Positions 487 to 51,196 of a stretch of 64,000 nt of DNA are shown here, in pieces; position 1 is the stretch's first letter, and the number at the start of each line of letters is the position of its first letter. Source of the stretch: Actinomycetes bacterium (GTDB lineage: Bacteria; Actinomycetota; Thermoleophilia; RBG-16-64-13). The stretch spans positions 1-64,000 of the forward strand of contig JAGXFW010000004.1 of assembly GCA_024637035.1 (NCBI GenBank). Reading direction: 5' to 3'. A model generated the notes under the pieces. The model had not been told where the DNA came from and searched no databases. It worked only from the letters and a program-made list of their open reading frames with translations. A program made the translations under genes and the position numbers.

Positions 487-1647
487 TCAGGTGGCCGGAG
501 CCACCTCCTCCACCACCCGGTTCGCCGCCACGAACTTGGCCATGATCAGCGCGTAGACGAAGGCGCCGAAGTAGACGCTCACGTAGTTGAGCGCCGACAG
601 AGCTGTGTACTGGTAGAAGAAGGCGTATACGTATACTCCCAGGACCTGGGAGCCGACGAACGCTCACACGAACCCCCATTGGGGCGGCGCGAAGGGGCTC
701 TTGACGAAGTACCTCGTGAAGTAGTCGCGAATGAGGTAGACGGAGCCGATTCCCCACACCACCGCGAGGGCGTAGGAGGCAGTGATCAGGAGCGCGGGCG
801 GGCCGGACGAGCCCGACGCCACCTGTGGTTGCAGGAAACCCGCCACCCGGTAGGCACTCAGACCGAACAGGCACGATATCGGGACGATCAAGAGGAACGC
901 GGGCAGGATCGGGTCGGCCGGGAGCTTCCCCGCCTTGACGTGGTTGTACGTCAGATAGGCGACCTTGTAGAGCAATACCGCCAGCCCGACGACAAGGGCG
1001 AACACGGTCCCGACCACCGCGATGTCGTCGATAAGGGGGTTGGTGGCCGTAGCGACGATGCCCGATCCGGTCAGAGCCACCAAGCCGAACGCGAAGGTAT
1101 CGAGCAGCCAGATGAAGTTGAACTTCGTGCGGTCCACACCCTCCGCGAACCAGGTGAGCCCGAACGTCACCTCGAGGTAGACGAGGACCGCCAAGAGCGC
1201 GACGAAGACTCCGAGCGACGGCACCATCATGGCCTGCATGCTGGAAGACATCTGGGGAACGAAGAAGCCGAATGGAGCCCAGATCACGTTGACGGTCATA
1301 GCCAGCGAGGCGACGATGGCAAAGATGCCGGCGTTCTGGTTCCCGTGCCCGTTATTCCTGAAGGTGCTGTAGGCGCCCGCTTCCCCGAGCCACCCCGCCA
1401 GGCGATAGAGGAAGTACACGGTCAGGGCGAAGTTGAGGAGGGTGAAGGCCAGCATGACGGCCGTGAGGGGCGCGTAGAGCGCCAGTTGGCCCCCTGTCAT
1501 GGCGCTCCAGGAGATATCGGCCCACGTGATCGGACCCTCGCCGTGGGGAAGGGCGAACTGCAGATAGTTGAAGGCCATCAGTGCGACGCCCCCCGCCGCC
1601 AATGACGATTGGAACAGCAATGGATGGAACTTGATACTCAGCTTCAC
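487..1647 (-). CDS. Multi-TM membrane protein, candidate selenoprotein read through UGA at 664-666 (386 residues if decoded)
   Basis: GTG start at 1647. The 327-codon ORF ends at TGA 664-666, but the same frame continues AFVGSQVLGVYVYAFFYQYTALSALNYVSVYFGAFVYALIMAKFVAANRVVEEVAPAT to TGA 487-489. Hydrophobic helices lie on both sides of the UGA, and a SECIS-like hairpin follows it. Confidence 0.7.
636..652 (-). promoter_or_regulatory. Bacterial SECIS-like hairpin
   Basis: Minus strand CTCCCAG-GTC-CTGGGAG, perfect 7-bp stem beginning 11 nt after the in-frame TGA; AGGTC at the apex as in the E. coli fdhF SECIS (AGGUCU). Confidence 0.65.
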
Positions 1648-1737: not shown

Positions 1738-1975
1738 AGTACAGGTCGGGCCTCCGACCGAAAAGCCCATGGGGGAGATCCGGGAGGGGATGCGATGTCA
1801 CCCGCAGACCGGGTTCCGGTACCACACGCCCGCTCCTAGGGAAGTCGGCCAGCCGCTCGACCGTGTCGAAAAGCTCAATCGCCCACCGAGCGGCGGCGTC
1901 AGGGTCGTCCAGGGCGATGTACACGGCGATCTCACCGACGCGCTCCAAGGCGGGGTCGGTCCAGACTACCTGCAT
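1738..1975 (-). pseudogene. ParE/RelE-type toxin, C-terminus apparently lost
   Basis: MQVVWTDPALERVGEIAVYIALDDPDAAARWAIELFDTVERLADFPRSGRVVPEP is ParE-like, but the expected C-terminal REL...YR..Y motif is absent and the frame runs on into the antisense of the next gene. Confidence 0.5.
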
Positions 1976-2253
1976 TCATCGACTCGCTTGAGGTTGCGGG
2001 CCCTGGCCTCCTCTTGTGGGATGCCTTCGCCGGCGGCTAACTGCGCCTCCGCACGCGCGATGTCCTCGAGCAACGCCAATCGCTCCCGCATCGCTTCGAA
2101 CTCGCGGATGTCCAGGACCACGGCCACTCCGCGACCACGCTGGGTGAGCACGAGTGGGCGACCCGTCTCATTGACCTGTTTGACGAAGGACGCGACTCCG
2201 GCCCGGAACTCCGAGAGCGGGCGGATGTCCTCATCGAGCTTGAGCGGCCGCAT
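1966..2253 (-). CDS. Phd/YefM-family antitoxin
   Basis: IRPLSEFRAGVASFVKQVNETGRPLVLTQRGRGVAVVLDIREFEAM; overlaps the ParE-like ORF. Confidence 0.85.
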   Translation of the reverse strand: MRPLKLDEDIRPLSEFRAGVASFVKQVNETGRPLVLTQRGRGVAVVLDIREFEAMRERLALLEDIARAEAQLAAGEGIPQEEARARNLKRVDECR

Positions 2254-3651: not shown

Positions 3652-3912
3652 ATGTGAGGTGGGCCGTGGTGGAAGTGCTTCGAACGTTGGACCCGGCGTT
3701 TCCGGAGCTTCACTCGCGTCGTTGTCGAAAGAAGAAGCGATCTCCGTCGCCTGATTAATCCTGGTATGCTGCGCAGAATCCTGCGGAATGGACCGCGGGC
3801 GGGTTGGGGGCTCAGGTGATTCGTCGCGTGCTCTGGGGAGGTGCGCGAGCGCAGCGAACGCCGATGCTGTCGACTCCGGGGCCGGTGGGAATCCGCCGGG
3901 ATAGGGGGGGTA

Positions 3913-4470
3913 ATGTCGAAGGAGTCAGTGAAGGTTGCCTTGGGCCAAGCCATGGCAGGGATCGAGAAGAACCCCAATTCAGCTAAGTTGGTGTTCCGGG
4001 CTGAGACTCGTTGGGAGGAAGACGTACGCTGCTCGGCCCAGGTGCGCGAGTTCCCGCGCATGACGGTGGATGAACCGCCGGAACTCGGAGGCGGCGATCA
4101 GGCTCCGAACCCGGTTGAACTCCTGCTCGTCGCACTCGGAACGTGCCAGGAGATCATGTACGCGGCGTACGCCGCCGTGATGGACATCCAATTCGACGAA
4201 GTGACCGTCGATTGCAAAGGGAATCTTGACCTCCGCGGCTTGTTCCCCTTGGACGAGACGATTCCGCCGGGCTACACGAGCATCAAGTTCGAGACGAACA
4301 TCAAGAGCACGGAGAGCCCCGAGAAGATAGCGGCCTTGATCGGGATGGTCGAAGCACACTGCCCCGTGCTTGACACGTTGACACGTGCCGTCACGATATC
4401 AGGGAACGTACTTCTCAACGGTGAGCAACTCCACCGGCACACGTGGCCTCCGGAAGCAGCGGTCCTCTAG
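3913..4470 (+). CDS. OsmC-family protein
   Basis: ETRWEEDVRCSAQVREFPRMTVDEPPELGGGDQAPNPVELLLVALGTCQEIMYAAYAAV...HCPVLDTL; G-rich RBS before ATG. Confidence 0.85.
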   Translation: MSKESVKVALGQAMAGIEKNPNSAKLVFRAETRWEEDVRCSAQVREFPRMTVDEPPELGGGDQAPNPVELLLVALGTCQEIMYAAYAAVMDIQFDEVTVDCKGNLDLRGLFPLDETIPPGYTSIKFETNIKSTESPEKIAALIGMVEAHCPVLDTLTRAVTISGNVLLNGEQLHRHTWPPEAAVL

Positions 4471-23215: not shown

Positions 23216-24679
23216 ATGGACGAAGACGTGCGACAGGCGTTGCGACGACTACCGGGCGTGGACGAACTCCTCGGCCACGACGATCTTGCTCCTCAGATCG
23301 ACCGCTACCCTCGGGAGCAGGTGGTCGAGGCTCTGCGCACGGCGCTCGAGACCGCCCGTGGCCGGGTGTTGGGCGGGGAGTATCCGGAGACATGGGGCGA
23401 GATCACCAGCGCGCCCGCGATCGTCGGGGAGGCGGGCAGGCTCCTTGGATCCTGGGCGCGTCCTCATCTGCGTCGTGTGCTGAACGCCTCGGGTGTGGTC
23501 ATCCACACCAACCTCGGCCGATCGACGCTGGCGCCGGCGGCCGTCGAGCGTGTGATCGAGGTGGCCCGGCACTACAACAACCTGGAGTACGACCTCGAGG
23601 CCGGAGTGCGCGGCTCGCGCCACGACCACGTGTCGGAGCTCCTCGCGCGGCTCACCGGGGCCGAGGCCGCCCTGGTGGTGAACAACAACGCGGGTGCCAC
23701 GCTTCTCATGCTGGCCGGCCTGGCCGGCGAGGGCGAAGTGGTGGTGTCGCGCGGACAACTGGTGGAGATCGGCGGGTCCTTCCGCATCCCCGACATCATG
23801 CGCATGAGCGGCTGCCGCCTGGTGGAGGTGGGCACCACCAACAAGACCCGCATCGACGACTATCGCGCGGCGATCACCTCGGAGACCACCCTGCTCTTGC
23901 GCGTCCATACCTCGAACTTCAAGGTGGTGGGGTTCACGGAGGAGGCATCCATCGCCGATTTGGTGGGATTGGGTCGTGAATGGGGAGTGCCCGTGGCCGA
24001 CGATCTCGGCAGCGGCGCTCTGATCGACCTGCCGGCCTTCCGCGACGAGCCACCGGTCACCGCCTCCCTGCGTGCCGGGGCCGACGTGGTCTCGTTCAGC
24101 GGCGACAAGTTGCTGGGCGGACCGCAGGCCGGCATCCTCCTGGGCACCCATGACGCCATCGCCCGTTTGAAGAAGCATCCGCTCACCCGGGCGCTTCGTG
24201 TGGACAAGATGACCTTGGCCGCCCTCGAGGGCACCCTGCAGCTCTATCGTGATCCTGCTGCCGCCGTTCGGGAGATCCCTACCTTGCGTTTCCTCGACCG
24301 GTCGTCGGCCGAGACGGAGGCGCTCGCCGGCGAGCTGCTCGTGCTGCTCGACTCCCGCTTTGCGGCCGCGGGGGTGGAGGCGCCGAGTCACGTGGAATCG
24401 AGCACGGCGCGGGCGGGCGGTGGGTCGCTCCCTCTGCTCGAGTTGGCGTCGCATGCAGTGGTGGTGCGGCCTGGCCCGGGAGTGGTGGTGTCGCTGGAGG
24501 CGGCGCTGCGGGAGGCCCCGGTGCCCGTGGTGGGTCGCGTGGCGCAGGACGCCTTGCTCCTCGACGTGCTGGCTTTGGAGCGCGACGAGCTGCCGTTGGT
24601 GGCGGATAGCGTCGCGTGGGCGCTGGCGCAGGTGCTGCCCGGCGCCGACGGCGCGGCCGACGGTGGTGTCGATGCCTGA
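23216..24679 (+). CDS. selA: L-seryl-tRNA(Sec) selenium transferase
   Basis: LRRVLNASGVVIHTNLGRSTLAPAAVERV...YNNLEYDLEAGVRGSRHDHV...VNNNAGATLLML...SFSGDKLLGGPQAGI. Confidence 0.96.
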   Translation: MDEDVRQALRRLPGVDELLGHDDLAPQIDRYPREQVVEALRTALETARGRVLGGEYPETWGEITSAPAIVGEAGRLLGSWARPHLRRVLNASGVVIHTNLGRSTLAPAAVERVIEVARHYNNLEYDLEAGVRGSRHDHVSELLARLTGAEAALVVNNNAGATLLMLAGLAGEGEVVVSRGQLVEIGGSFRIPDIMRMSGCRLVEVGTTNKTRIDDYRAAITSETTLLLRVHTSNFKVVGFTEEASIADLVGLGREWGVPVADDLGSGALIDLPAFRDEPPVTASLRAGADVVSFSGDKLLGGPQAGILLGTHDAIARLKKHPLTRALRVDKMTLAALEGTLQLYRDPAAAVREIPTLRFLDRSSAETEALAGELLVLLDSRFAAAGVEAPSHVESSTARAGGGSLPLLELASHAVVVRPGPGVVVSLEAALREAPVPVVGRVAQDALLLDVLALERDELPLVADSVAWALAQVLPGADGAADGGVDA

Positions 24680-26603
24680 ACGCGGGCTGACGCTCGGCAC
24701 CGCCGGGCACATCGATCACGGCAAGACGACGCTGGTGAAGTCCCTCACCGGCAAGGACACCGACCGCCTCAAAGAAGAGAAGGACCGCGGTATCAGCATC
24801 GAACTCGGCTACGCGGAACTCACGCTGCCCAGTGGGCACCACCTCAGCGTGATCGACGTCCCCGGTCACGAACGCTTCGTCAAGAACATGGTGGCGGGGG
24901 CCACCGGCATCGACATCTTCCTGCTGGTGGTGGCGTCGGACGACGGCGTCATGCCTCAGACCCGCGAGCACCTGCGCATCATCGAGTTGCTCGACATCCC
25001 TCTCGGCGCCGTGGCCCTCACCAAGATCGACATGGTCGATGAGGAGATGGTCGAGCTCGCCGCCGCCGACGTGGAGGACTTCCTCGCCACCTCCCGCTAC
25101 GCGGACGCGCCCATCGTGCCGGTGAGCGGCGTCACGGGGGCCGGCATCCCTGAGCTCCTGGCGGCCCTCGACGAATTGGCCGCGCGGGCGCCACGCCGCG
25201 GCGCCTACCCGGCGACGCGCATGCCCATCGACCGCGTCTTCTCACTCAAGGGCATCGGCACGGTTGTCACCGGCACGCTCTGGTCGGGGGAGCTCACTCC
25301 TGAGGAGACCGTGGCGATCCTTCCCAGGTTGGGCGCGACCGTGCTCGACGAGGTGCGGGTGCGGAGCATCCAGGTGCACGATCAGTCGGTGGAGGCGGCG
25401 GAGGAGGGGCAGCGGGTGGCGCTCAACCTCACCGGTGTCGACCGCGGGCAGCTGCAGCGGGGGCAGTGGGTGATCAAGGACCCCGTCGTGGAGCCCACGT
25501 ATCTGGCCGACGTGTCCCTGGTGTTGTTGGACGACGCACCCGAGCCGCTCACCCGCGTGTCGCGGGTGCGGGTAGACCATGGCACCCAGGAGGTGCTGGC
25601 CAAGGTCGTGCTGGCCGACCGGGAGCAACTCGAGCCGGGCGAGGGCTGTTACGCGCAGATCCGCTTCGAAGACCGGGCGGTGGTCTACCCGGGCGACCAC
25701 TTCATCCTGCGCTCGCTCACCCCTATCACCACCATCGGCGGCGGACGGGTGTACGACCCCGACCCGCGCAAGCACGGCACCGATCCCAAGTGGCGGGAGC
25801 GCCTCTCGGTGCTCGAGGACGGGCCGGCGGAGGCGATCGTCGACCTGCTCCTCTCCGAAGCCTTCCCCAAAGGTATCCTGCGCCGGCACTTGGAGGTGAG
25901 CCCGTACCTGTGGCGCTTCGAGGCGCTGCCCGCGATCAAGGCCACCCTGTCGGCGGCCCGCGCCGTGGAGAGCCTGCAACAGCGCGTGTTCCACGCGCCG
26001 GCTCTGCTGGTCCTCGAGGAGACGGTGGTGGCGGCGCTTCGCGCCTGGGCCGACGCCGACGCTCTCAACCCCTACCTCTCGGTGGGCGAGTTGCGCCAGG
26101 CGGTCTCGGAAGGCAAGGACTGGCCTGCCCTCGACGTGGCCCTCGAGCGCCTGCAGGCTGCGGGCACCGTGGTGCGTACCGAACACGGGTTCCGCTGGGG
26201 AGAAGCAGCCGGAGCCATGGAGGGCGACGATGCCGAGCACGCCGAGGAACTGCTCGGCGTCTACGAGCGTATCGGGTTGGAGGCGCCGGCCGTGGCCGCC
26301 GCCGCCGCGGAGTCGGGCCTGGCTGAGAAGGAGGCCATCCGCCTCATCCGCGCCCTCGAGCGTCAGGGCCGCATGGCCAAGGTGGGTGAAGACCTCTACT
26401 ACGCCACCAGCACCCTCGACGAGGTGATGGCCCGCATCGCCGCCGAGATGGAGTCCCGGGGCCAGATCACCCTGGCCGAGGTGCGCGACCTCTTCGCCAC
26501 CTCGCGCAAGTACGCCCAGGCACTGCTCGAACACATGGACTCCGAGGGCATGACCCTGCGCGTGGGCGACGCACGCCGCCTGCGCAAGCGGCGGCGGACG
26601 TGA
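24672..26603 (+). CDS. selB: Selenocysteine-specific elongation factor
   Basis: [43 protein letters not shown]...[19 protein letters not shown] plus C-terminal winged helices; ATGCCTGA overlap with selA. Confidence 0.97.
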
Positions 26604-46846: not shown

Positions 46847-46959
46847 CGCACTGCCTCCCTTCGGGTCGCGAGAGCCCGGAGGGGGAGCCAGCAGATGGGT
46901 GTGCCGCAGCCGTCGCTGCGCCACAGGGGGAGACCTTCTTTCGGGACTCCTACATCCCG

Positions 46960-47061
46960 CTCATCGAGGCACCGCCCTCATGCGAGGACGTCGCGCTCAA
47001 GCACCGCTGGCGTCTCCTGCCCGGTTGCCGGATCCCCTTCCGGGATCGCTCTTGATGATGT
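46960..47061 (-). ncRNA. S-box-like (SAM-I/SAM-IV clan) riboswitch candidate, copy 1
   Basis: Minus strand TCATCAAGAGC-GATCCC[GGAAG]GGGATC-CGGCAACCGGGCAGGAGACGCCAGCGGTGC...CGATGA; P1, P2, P3 stems can be drawn; upstream of 46379-46846. Confidence 0.6.
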
Positions 47062-47203
47062 ATCCGAGTGTAGCAGGGGGTGCGGACGGAAAGGCGGGGG
47101 CGCTGGAGGCCAGGGGTACGGACTCGCGCCTCGAACGGAATGCTCGTGGCGACGGAGGCCCGGCATTACCGGTGAGACGTGAAGGAGCCGACTGGGCCCT
47201 GCG

Positions 47204-51099: not shown

Positions 51100-51196
51100 G
51101 GAGTGGCATCCGGTCTGGTGGCCGGCCCGGTCTTCAAAACCGCTGTTCGGCGGTGATCCCGTCGAGGGTGGGTTCGATTCCCACGCCGCTCCGCCA
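51100..51196 (+). tRNA. selC: tRNA-Sec (UCA)
   Basis: GGAGTGGC...GCCGCTCC 8-bp acceptor stem (one G-U), anticodon TCA at 51134-51136 in loop CTTCAAA, long variable arm, GTGGG-TTCGATT-CCCAC T-arm, G discriminator and encoded CCA. Confidence 0.95.

Follow-up and report, generated by a model that had tools for sequence, protein, structure and literature searches.

A gene in the stretch of 64,000 nucleotides analysed here (the window) looks truncated, but by its sequence it is in fact a full-length and ordinary further member of the already described TsoY family. The UGA at positions 664-666, at which gene callers stop, is with near certainty a selenocysteine (Sec) codon, judged from its conservation, and the tsoY product a selenoprotein. 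The annotation can be corrected, because callers that stop at residue 327 lose most of transmembrane helix 9 (TM9) and all of TM10. The best explanation as a whole, to which an even chance is given, is that selenoprotein TsoY would be a SLAC1-type channel or transporter, gated by Sec, through which a small selenium or sulfur species passes. Its computed part consists of the family membership, the conservation of the UGA and of the hairpin behind it, the fold, the alignment of Sec with the gate residue, and the neighbouring genes.

Reading frame, UGA and hairpin of tsoY

The minus-strand open reading frame starts with a GTG at position 1647, runs through 327 codons to the TGA at 664-666 and continues for 58 codons to the TGA at 487-489. 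It was verified that the initial annotation, which had described a 327-aa reading frame that stays open for 58 further residues, had given the correct coordinates and frame. The features are the following:

487-1647, minus strand: tsoY, selenoprotein TsoY, 386 aa; GTG start, Sec328, stop TGA at 487-489, 10 predicted transmembrane helices (NF047643 match, AlphaFold2 model)
664-666, minus strand: in-frame UGA, predicted to be read as Sec, residue 328 in predicted TM9; same position in 19/19 full-length Sec-type sequences, UGC in L016
636-652, minus strand: putative bacterial SECIS-type hairpin CUCCCAG-GUC-CUGGGAG, 11 nt past the UGA (folding, pairing conservation, comparison with fdhF)
23216-24679, plus strand: selA, L-seryl-tRNA(Sec) selenium transferase (TIGR00474, 549.5 bits, cutoff 267.9)
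24249-26603, plus strand: selB, Sec-specific elongation factor with a SelB winged-helix domain (TIGR00475, 344 bits, cutoff 242; SelB-wing_3)
51100-51196, plus strand: selC, tRNA-Sec with UCA anticodon (RF01852, 72.6 bits)

The presence of selA, selB and tRNA-Sec in the same window had been claimed before, and all three were located by profile matches; the true start of selB is probably near 24690. The selD gene lies outside the window in the same genome (L033, G000:C7:14250-15176), and the organism thus has the Sec machinery. This selD contains an in-frame UGA of its own (motif GUACK); the hairpin behind it resembles that of tsoY and has GGAC as its loop. An OsmC-related protein is also encoded in the window (3841-4470, plus strand; NF041052, 98.6 bits, cutoff 95); this family includes selenoproteins, and the gene has no in-frame UGA here.

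In tsoY, the UGA is followed by 11 nt, GCGUUCGUCGG, and then by the hairpin, which has a perfect 7-bp stem and a 3-nt loop, and one G-U pair lengthens the stem to 8 bp. The 51-nt stretch around it has a folding energy of -19.6 kcal/mol (z = -2.35 against dinucleotide shuffles). The exact geometry, i.e. a 7-bp stem and a 3-nt loop that start exactly 11 nt downstream, was found solely behind the tsoY UGA among the 1,518 TGAs on both strands of the window. The position and the perfect stem that had been claimed for the hairpin were confirmed. With a looser geometry (spacing 8-14, loop 3-6, 7-bp stem, Watson-Crick pairs only) 12 of the 1,518 TGAs qualified. The latter number is what can be said for the view that the hairpin arose by chance, that the UGA simply ends translation, as an ordinary stop or through a nonsense mutation, and that the 3′ part is dead sequence.

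Conservation among TsoY homologues

The initial annotation had named TsoY tentatively and had considered a new family as well. The 386-aa readthrough product matched the NCBIfam model NF047643 "selenoprotein TsoY" with 482 bits (cutoff 250) at model positions 1-366 of 366, and NF047644 TsoY_fam with 309 bits (cutoff 150). The tentative name was therefore right, and a new family was ruled out by the full-length match to NF047643. Both models were also matched by all 17 aligned homologues. The protein has one Sec near the C-terminus, and the motif at this residue, UAFV, fits the family motif UxxV. A 2026 review lists TsoY with this motif, credits it to Haft and Tolstoy 2025 and gives no function (PMC13188914). 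No link between tsoY genomes and TsoX (NF045809) was found in a search in which no positive control responded.

Homologues were collected in two scans, one over genome contigs and the other over the window's phylum, and the relatives came from records of Actinomycetota, Bacillota, Deltaproteobacteria/Desulfobacterota, Anaeromyxobacter and Fusobacteria. Nineteen full-length Sec-type sequences, including that of the window, were compared. All 19 had a UGA at the aligned codon, and the stretch after it read [AG][FL]VGSQVLG. Among 397 genomes of the window's phylum four TsoY members were present, all of them with UGA. In none of the homologues did the protein end at this position; it was occupied by Sec (UGA) or by Cys (UGC).

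The 7 hairpin pairs were intact in 19/19 UGA forms. When synonymous codons were shuffled, all 7 pairs were obtained with P = 0.008-0.044 per sequence, values that cannot be multiplied because the sequences are related. As complete pairing is rare under synonymous redrawing, the hairpin cannot be put down to the encoded protein alone. Paired cells amounted to 97.4% (Cys row included), in contrast to 21-60% in versions of the hairpin that had been slid along the alignment, and compensatory changes were found at two pairs. Downstream of the UGA dN was 0.03-0.24 and dS was 0.39-0.65, indicating purifying selection at the protein level, and third-position changes were few in the hairpin region.

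The only Cys-type homologue found was that of Trichococcus (L016), which has UGC at the Sec position. Its hairpin is broken, with 3/7 pairs left, whereas all Sec forms have kept theirs. The Trichococcus genome yielded no SelB match above the cutoff; it contains a selD without UGA and, close to it, ybbB (selenouridine trait). A survey of 298 genomes of the Trichococcus order revealed no other TsoY member and no further Cys form. Because Trichococcus has ybbB and selD and gave no SelB match above the cutoff, TsoY seems, on the basis of this one genome, to be associated with selenium utilisation as such, not specifically with the decoding of Sec. The conservation and the Cys form rule out a nonsense mutation or a chance hairpin: the downstream protein and the hairpin are kept across several phyla under purifying selection, and the genome without a SelB match above the cutoff has Cys in place of the UGA, which leaves an ordinary stop a vanishingly small probability.

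Several of the collected loci had peculiarities. In a Desulfocapsaceae MAG (L023) the tsoY frame is interrupted by a further stop, UAA or UAG, before the Sec codon is reached, which represents a broken gene or an assembly error. In a sister species (L002:1-300 and L006, a genome of the same genus) tsoY ends around residue 296 at the contig edge, and the adjoining sequence resembles by eye the end of a transposable element, with no match to a Pfam family.

Predicted fold and gate position

An AlphaFold2 model was built from 17 sequences. It has ten helices (mean pLDDT 83.2, pTM 0.86) and places Sec328 in TM9 (residues 321-343). The only confident Foldseek matches of the model were SLAC1, SLAH3 and TehA, and the top matches had a probability of 1.00 and a TM-score (target) of 0.57-0.78. 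The Pfam family SLAC1 (PF03595) matched 15 of 17 TsoY homologues with a best E-value of 1.7e-9; the window protein stayed below the gathering score (18.1-18.5 bits versus 27.9). When the PDB was searched by sequence, using the TsoY profile, no chain was retrieved. According to the model, TsoY very probably has a SLAC1-type fold.

For the comparison at the residue level a SLAC1 profile of 22 SLAC1-family sequences was used. The similarity of TsoY to this profile was remote (hhalign, E ~1e-4, probability 49-61%), and Sec328 was aligned with Phe262 of E. coli TehA. In four joint MAFFT alignments the Sec or Cys of every TsoY and the Phe of all 22 SLAC1 sequences shared one column. This Phe262 column is invariant in the 22 sequences and is one of only two invariant columns in that alignment. 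For H. influenzae TehA, Phe262 on TM9 has been described as the gate, and the pore is lined by the odd-numbered helices (PMC11050165). Significance was not reached when the TsoY profile was compared with TehA only or with small subsets of the SLAC1 sequences; the gate claim is accordingly based on the full set of 22 sequences, its larger subsets, the joint alignments and the W-x-F/Y-x-gate motif common to both families. Sec328 probably occupies the position of the pore-gate Phe of the SLAC1 family, which the alignments make a strong lead, not proof.

Only two positions, 259 and 328, carry invariant Cys or Sec in TsoY. As Cys259 is located on TM7 and Sec328 on TM9, and as odd-numbered helices line the pore in TehA, an Se-S pair between Sec328 and Cys259 is conceivable.

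Gene neighbourhoods, possible function and comparison with known systems

Neighbours within 5 kb of tsoY were counted across loci. ArsR-type regulators were found at 12 loci, some of them with a rhodanese-like tail, NifS/IscS-type desulfurases at 8 loci (three of these close relatives) and DsrE-like proteins at 6 loci, in addition to a YedF-like DsrE in L012 and L016. The small DsrE proteins matched TIGR03527 YedF only far below the cutoff. CGGC proteins and LysR regulators were present at 3 loci each, and SelD was among the neighbours at two loci (L012 and L022). SelD was present in 18/18 tsoY genomes examined, as is expected of any Sec-using genome. Around the tsoY gene of the window no selenium genes were found within about 20 kb, and the nearest, selA and selB, are about 22 kb away.

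In two Actinomycetota relatives an ArsR-type reading frame runs on into a stretch that is GcvH-like by eye and ends right before tsoY (L007:5087-5998, L008:5117-5998). In the window, a Phd-family antitoxin is encoded just upstream of tsoY (1966-2253, minus strand), slightly overlapping the start of another reading frame, and a SAM-I/IV riboswitch match (46926-47063, minus strand) has 43.3 bits, barely over the gathering score.

The neighbours that handle selenium or sulfur (selD, NifS-type desulfurases, DsrE/YedF-like proteins) together with the SLAC1 fold make selenium or sulfur species candidate substrates. The proposed mechanism starts with SelB, which together with Sec-tRNA would decode the UGA at 664-666, aided by the hairpin 11 nt downstream; Sec would be inserted at residue 328 in the living cell, yielding the 386-aa ten-helix membrane protein. 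TsoY would then adopt the SLAC1/TehA (TDT) channel fold, with Sec replacing the pore-gate Phe of TM9, and could let a small species of selenium or of reactive sulfur pass, as a channel or a transporter, and so feed selenium assimilation by way of SelD. Sec328 may be a redox-sensitive gate or a residue that contacts the substrate, a role in which the invariant Cys259 of TM7 might take part. Sec incorporation in vivo, the channel or transport activity, its substrate and direction, and the redox gating are what we infer. A role of TsoY in selenium supply is put at somewhat less than an even chance. More tentative still is the specific version in which Sec stands in for the gate Phe and controls the passage of selenium or sulfur, i.e. 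a selenium-supply channel that is gated by selenium itself.

TsoY might instead be a SLAC1-fold selenoprotein that acts as a membrane redox enzyme or sensor, e.g. for reactive sulfur or peroxide, with Sec and Cys259 as the redox couple. Selenoproteins are mostly thought to be redox proteins (PMC13188914), 259 and 328 are the sole invariant Cys/Sec positions, and ArsR regulators with rhodanese-like tails as well as DsrE-like proteins are general sulfur-redox genes. However, TsoY has no enzyme domain and has the predicted fold of an anion channel, and selenium supply is suggested by SelD and the YedF-like proteins among the neighbours, so that this role appears rather unlikely.

Lower still is the probability that TsoY exports or detoxifies surplus selenite, sulfite or similar anions instead of importing. 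TehA and the sulfite pumps of yeast are members of the same superfamily. The SLAC1/TehA/TDT fold would suit such a role, and so would the ArsR-type regulators in many neighbourhoods. The co-location with selD and desulfurases and the presence in selenium users fit assimilation better, and a direction cannot be deduced from a sequence.

A 2024 paper (PMC11097638) states that not one organism is known to have a transporter dedicated to selenium. If TsoY were a selenium transporter with Sec in a SLAC1-type pore gate, it would be a candidate for such a transporter, and it would be a case of Sec serving as part of a channel gate instead of acting in a soluble redox enzyme. The proposal gives the TsoY family, for which PMC13188914 names no function, a hypothesis that can be tested.

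Selenoprotein TsoY (NF047643) is the known system that is closest to the window protein: the match is full-length, the UxxV motif and the single Sec close to the C-terminus are shared, and nothing essential differs. The hairpin resembles the SECIS of E. coli fdhF, as had been noted initially. In the MG1655 sequence the fdhF UGA is followed by 11 nt and then by GGUUGCAGGUCUGCACC, so that both hairpins begin 11 nt past the UGA and both have the apex GGUC. In contrast, the fdhF stem contains a bulged U, while the tsoY stem of 7-8 bp is uninterrupted. With TehA/SLAC1/TDT proteins (PF03595) TsoY shares the predicted ten-helix fold, the TM9 motif W-x-F/Y-x-gate and a remote profile similarity. It differs from them in having Sec or Cys instead of the gate Phe, in length (386 residues in the window protein versus about 320) and in the score of the window protein below the gathering threshold. 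For the selenium-metabolism proteins YedE/YedF a selenium transport has been proposed (PMC5322559). They are similar to TsoY in that a ten-helix membrane protein is tied to SelD, and DsrE/YedF-like neighbours occur at tsoY loci; however, they belong to a different protein family, and YedE was above the cutoff in only 2 of 18 tsoY genomes, a figure that has no background rate.
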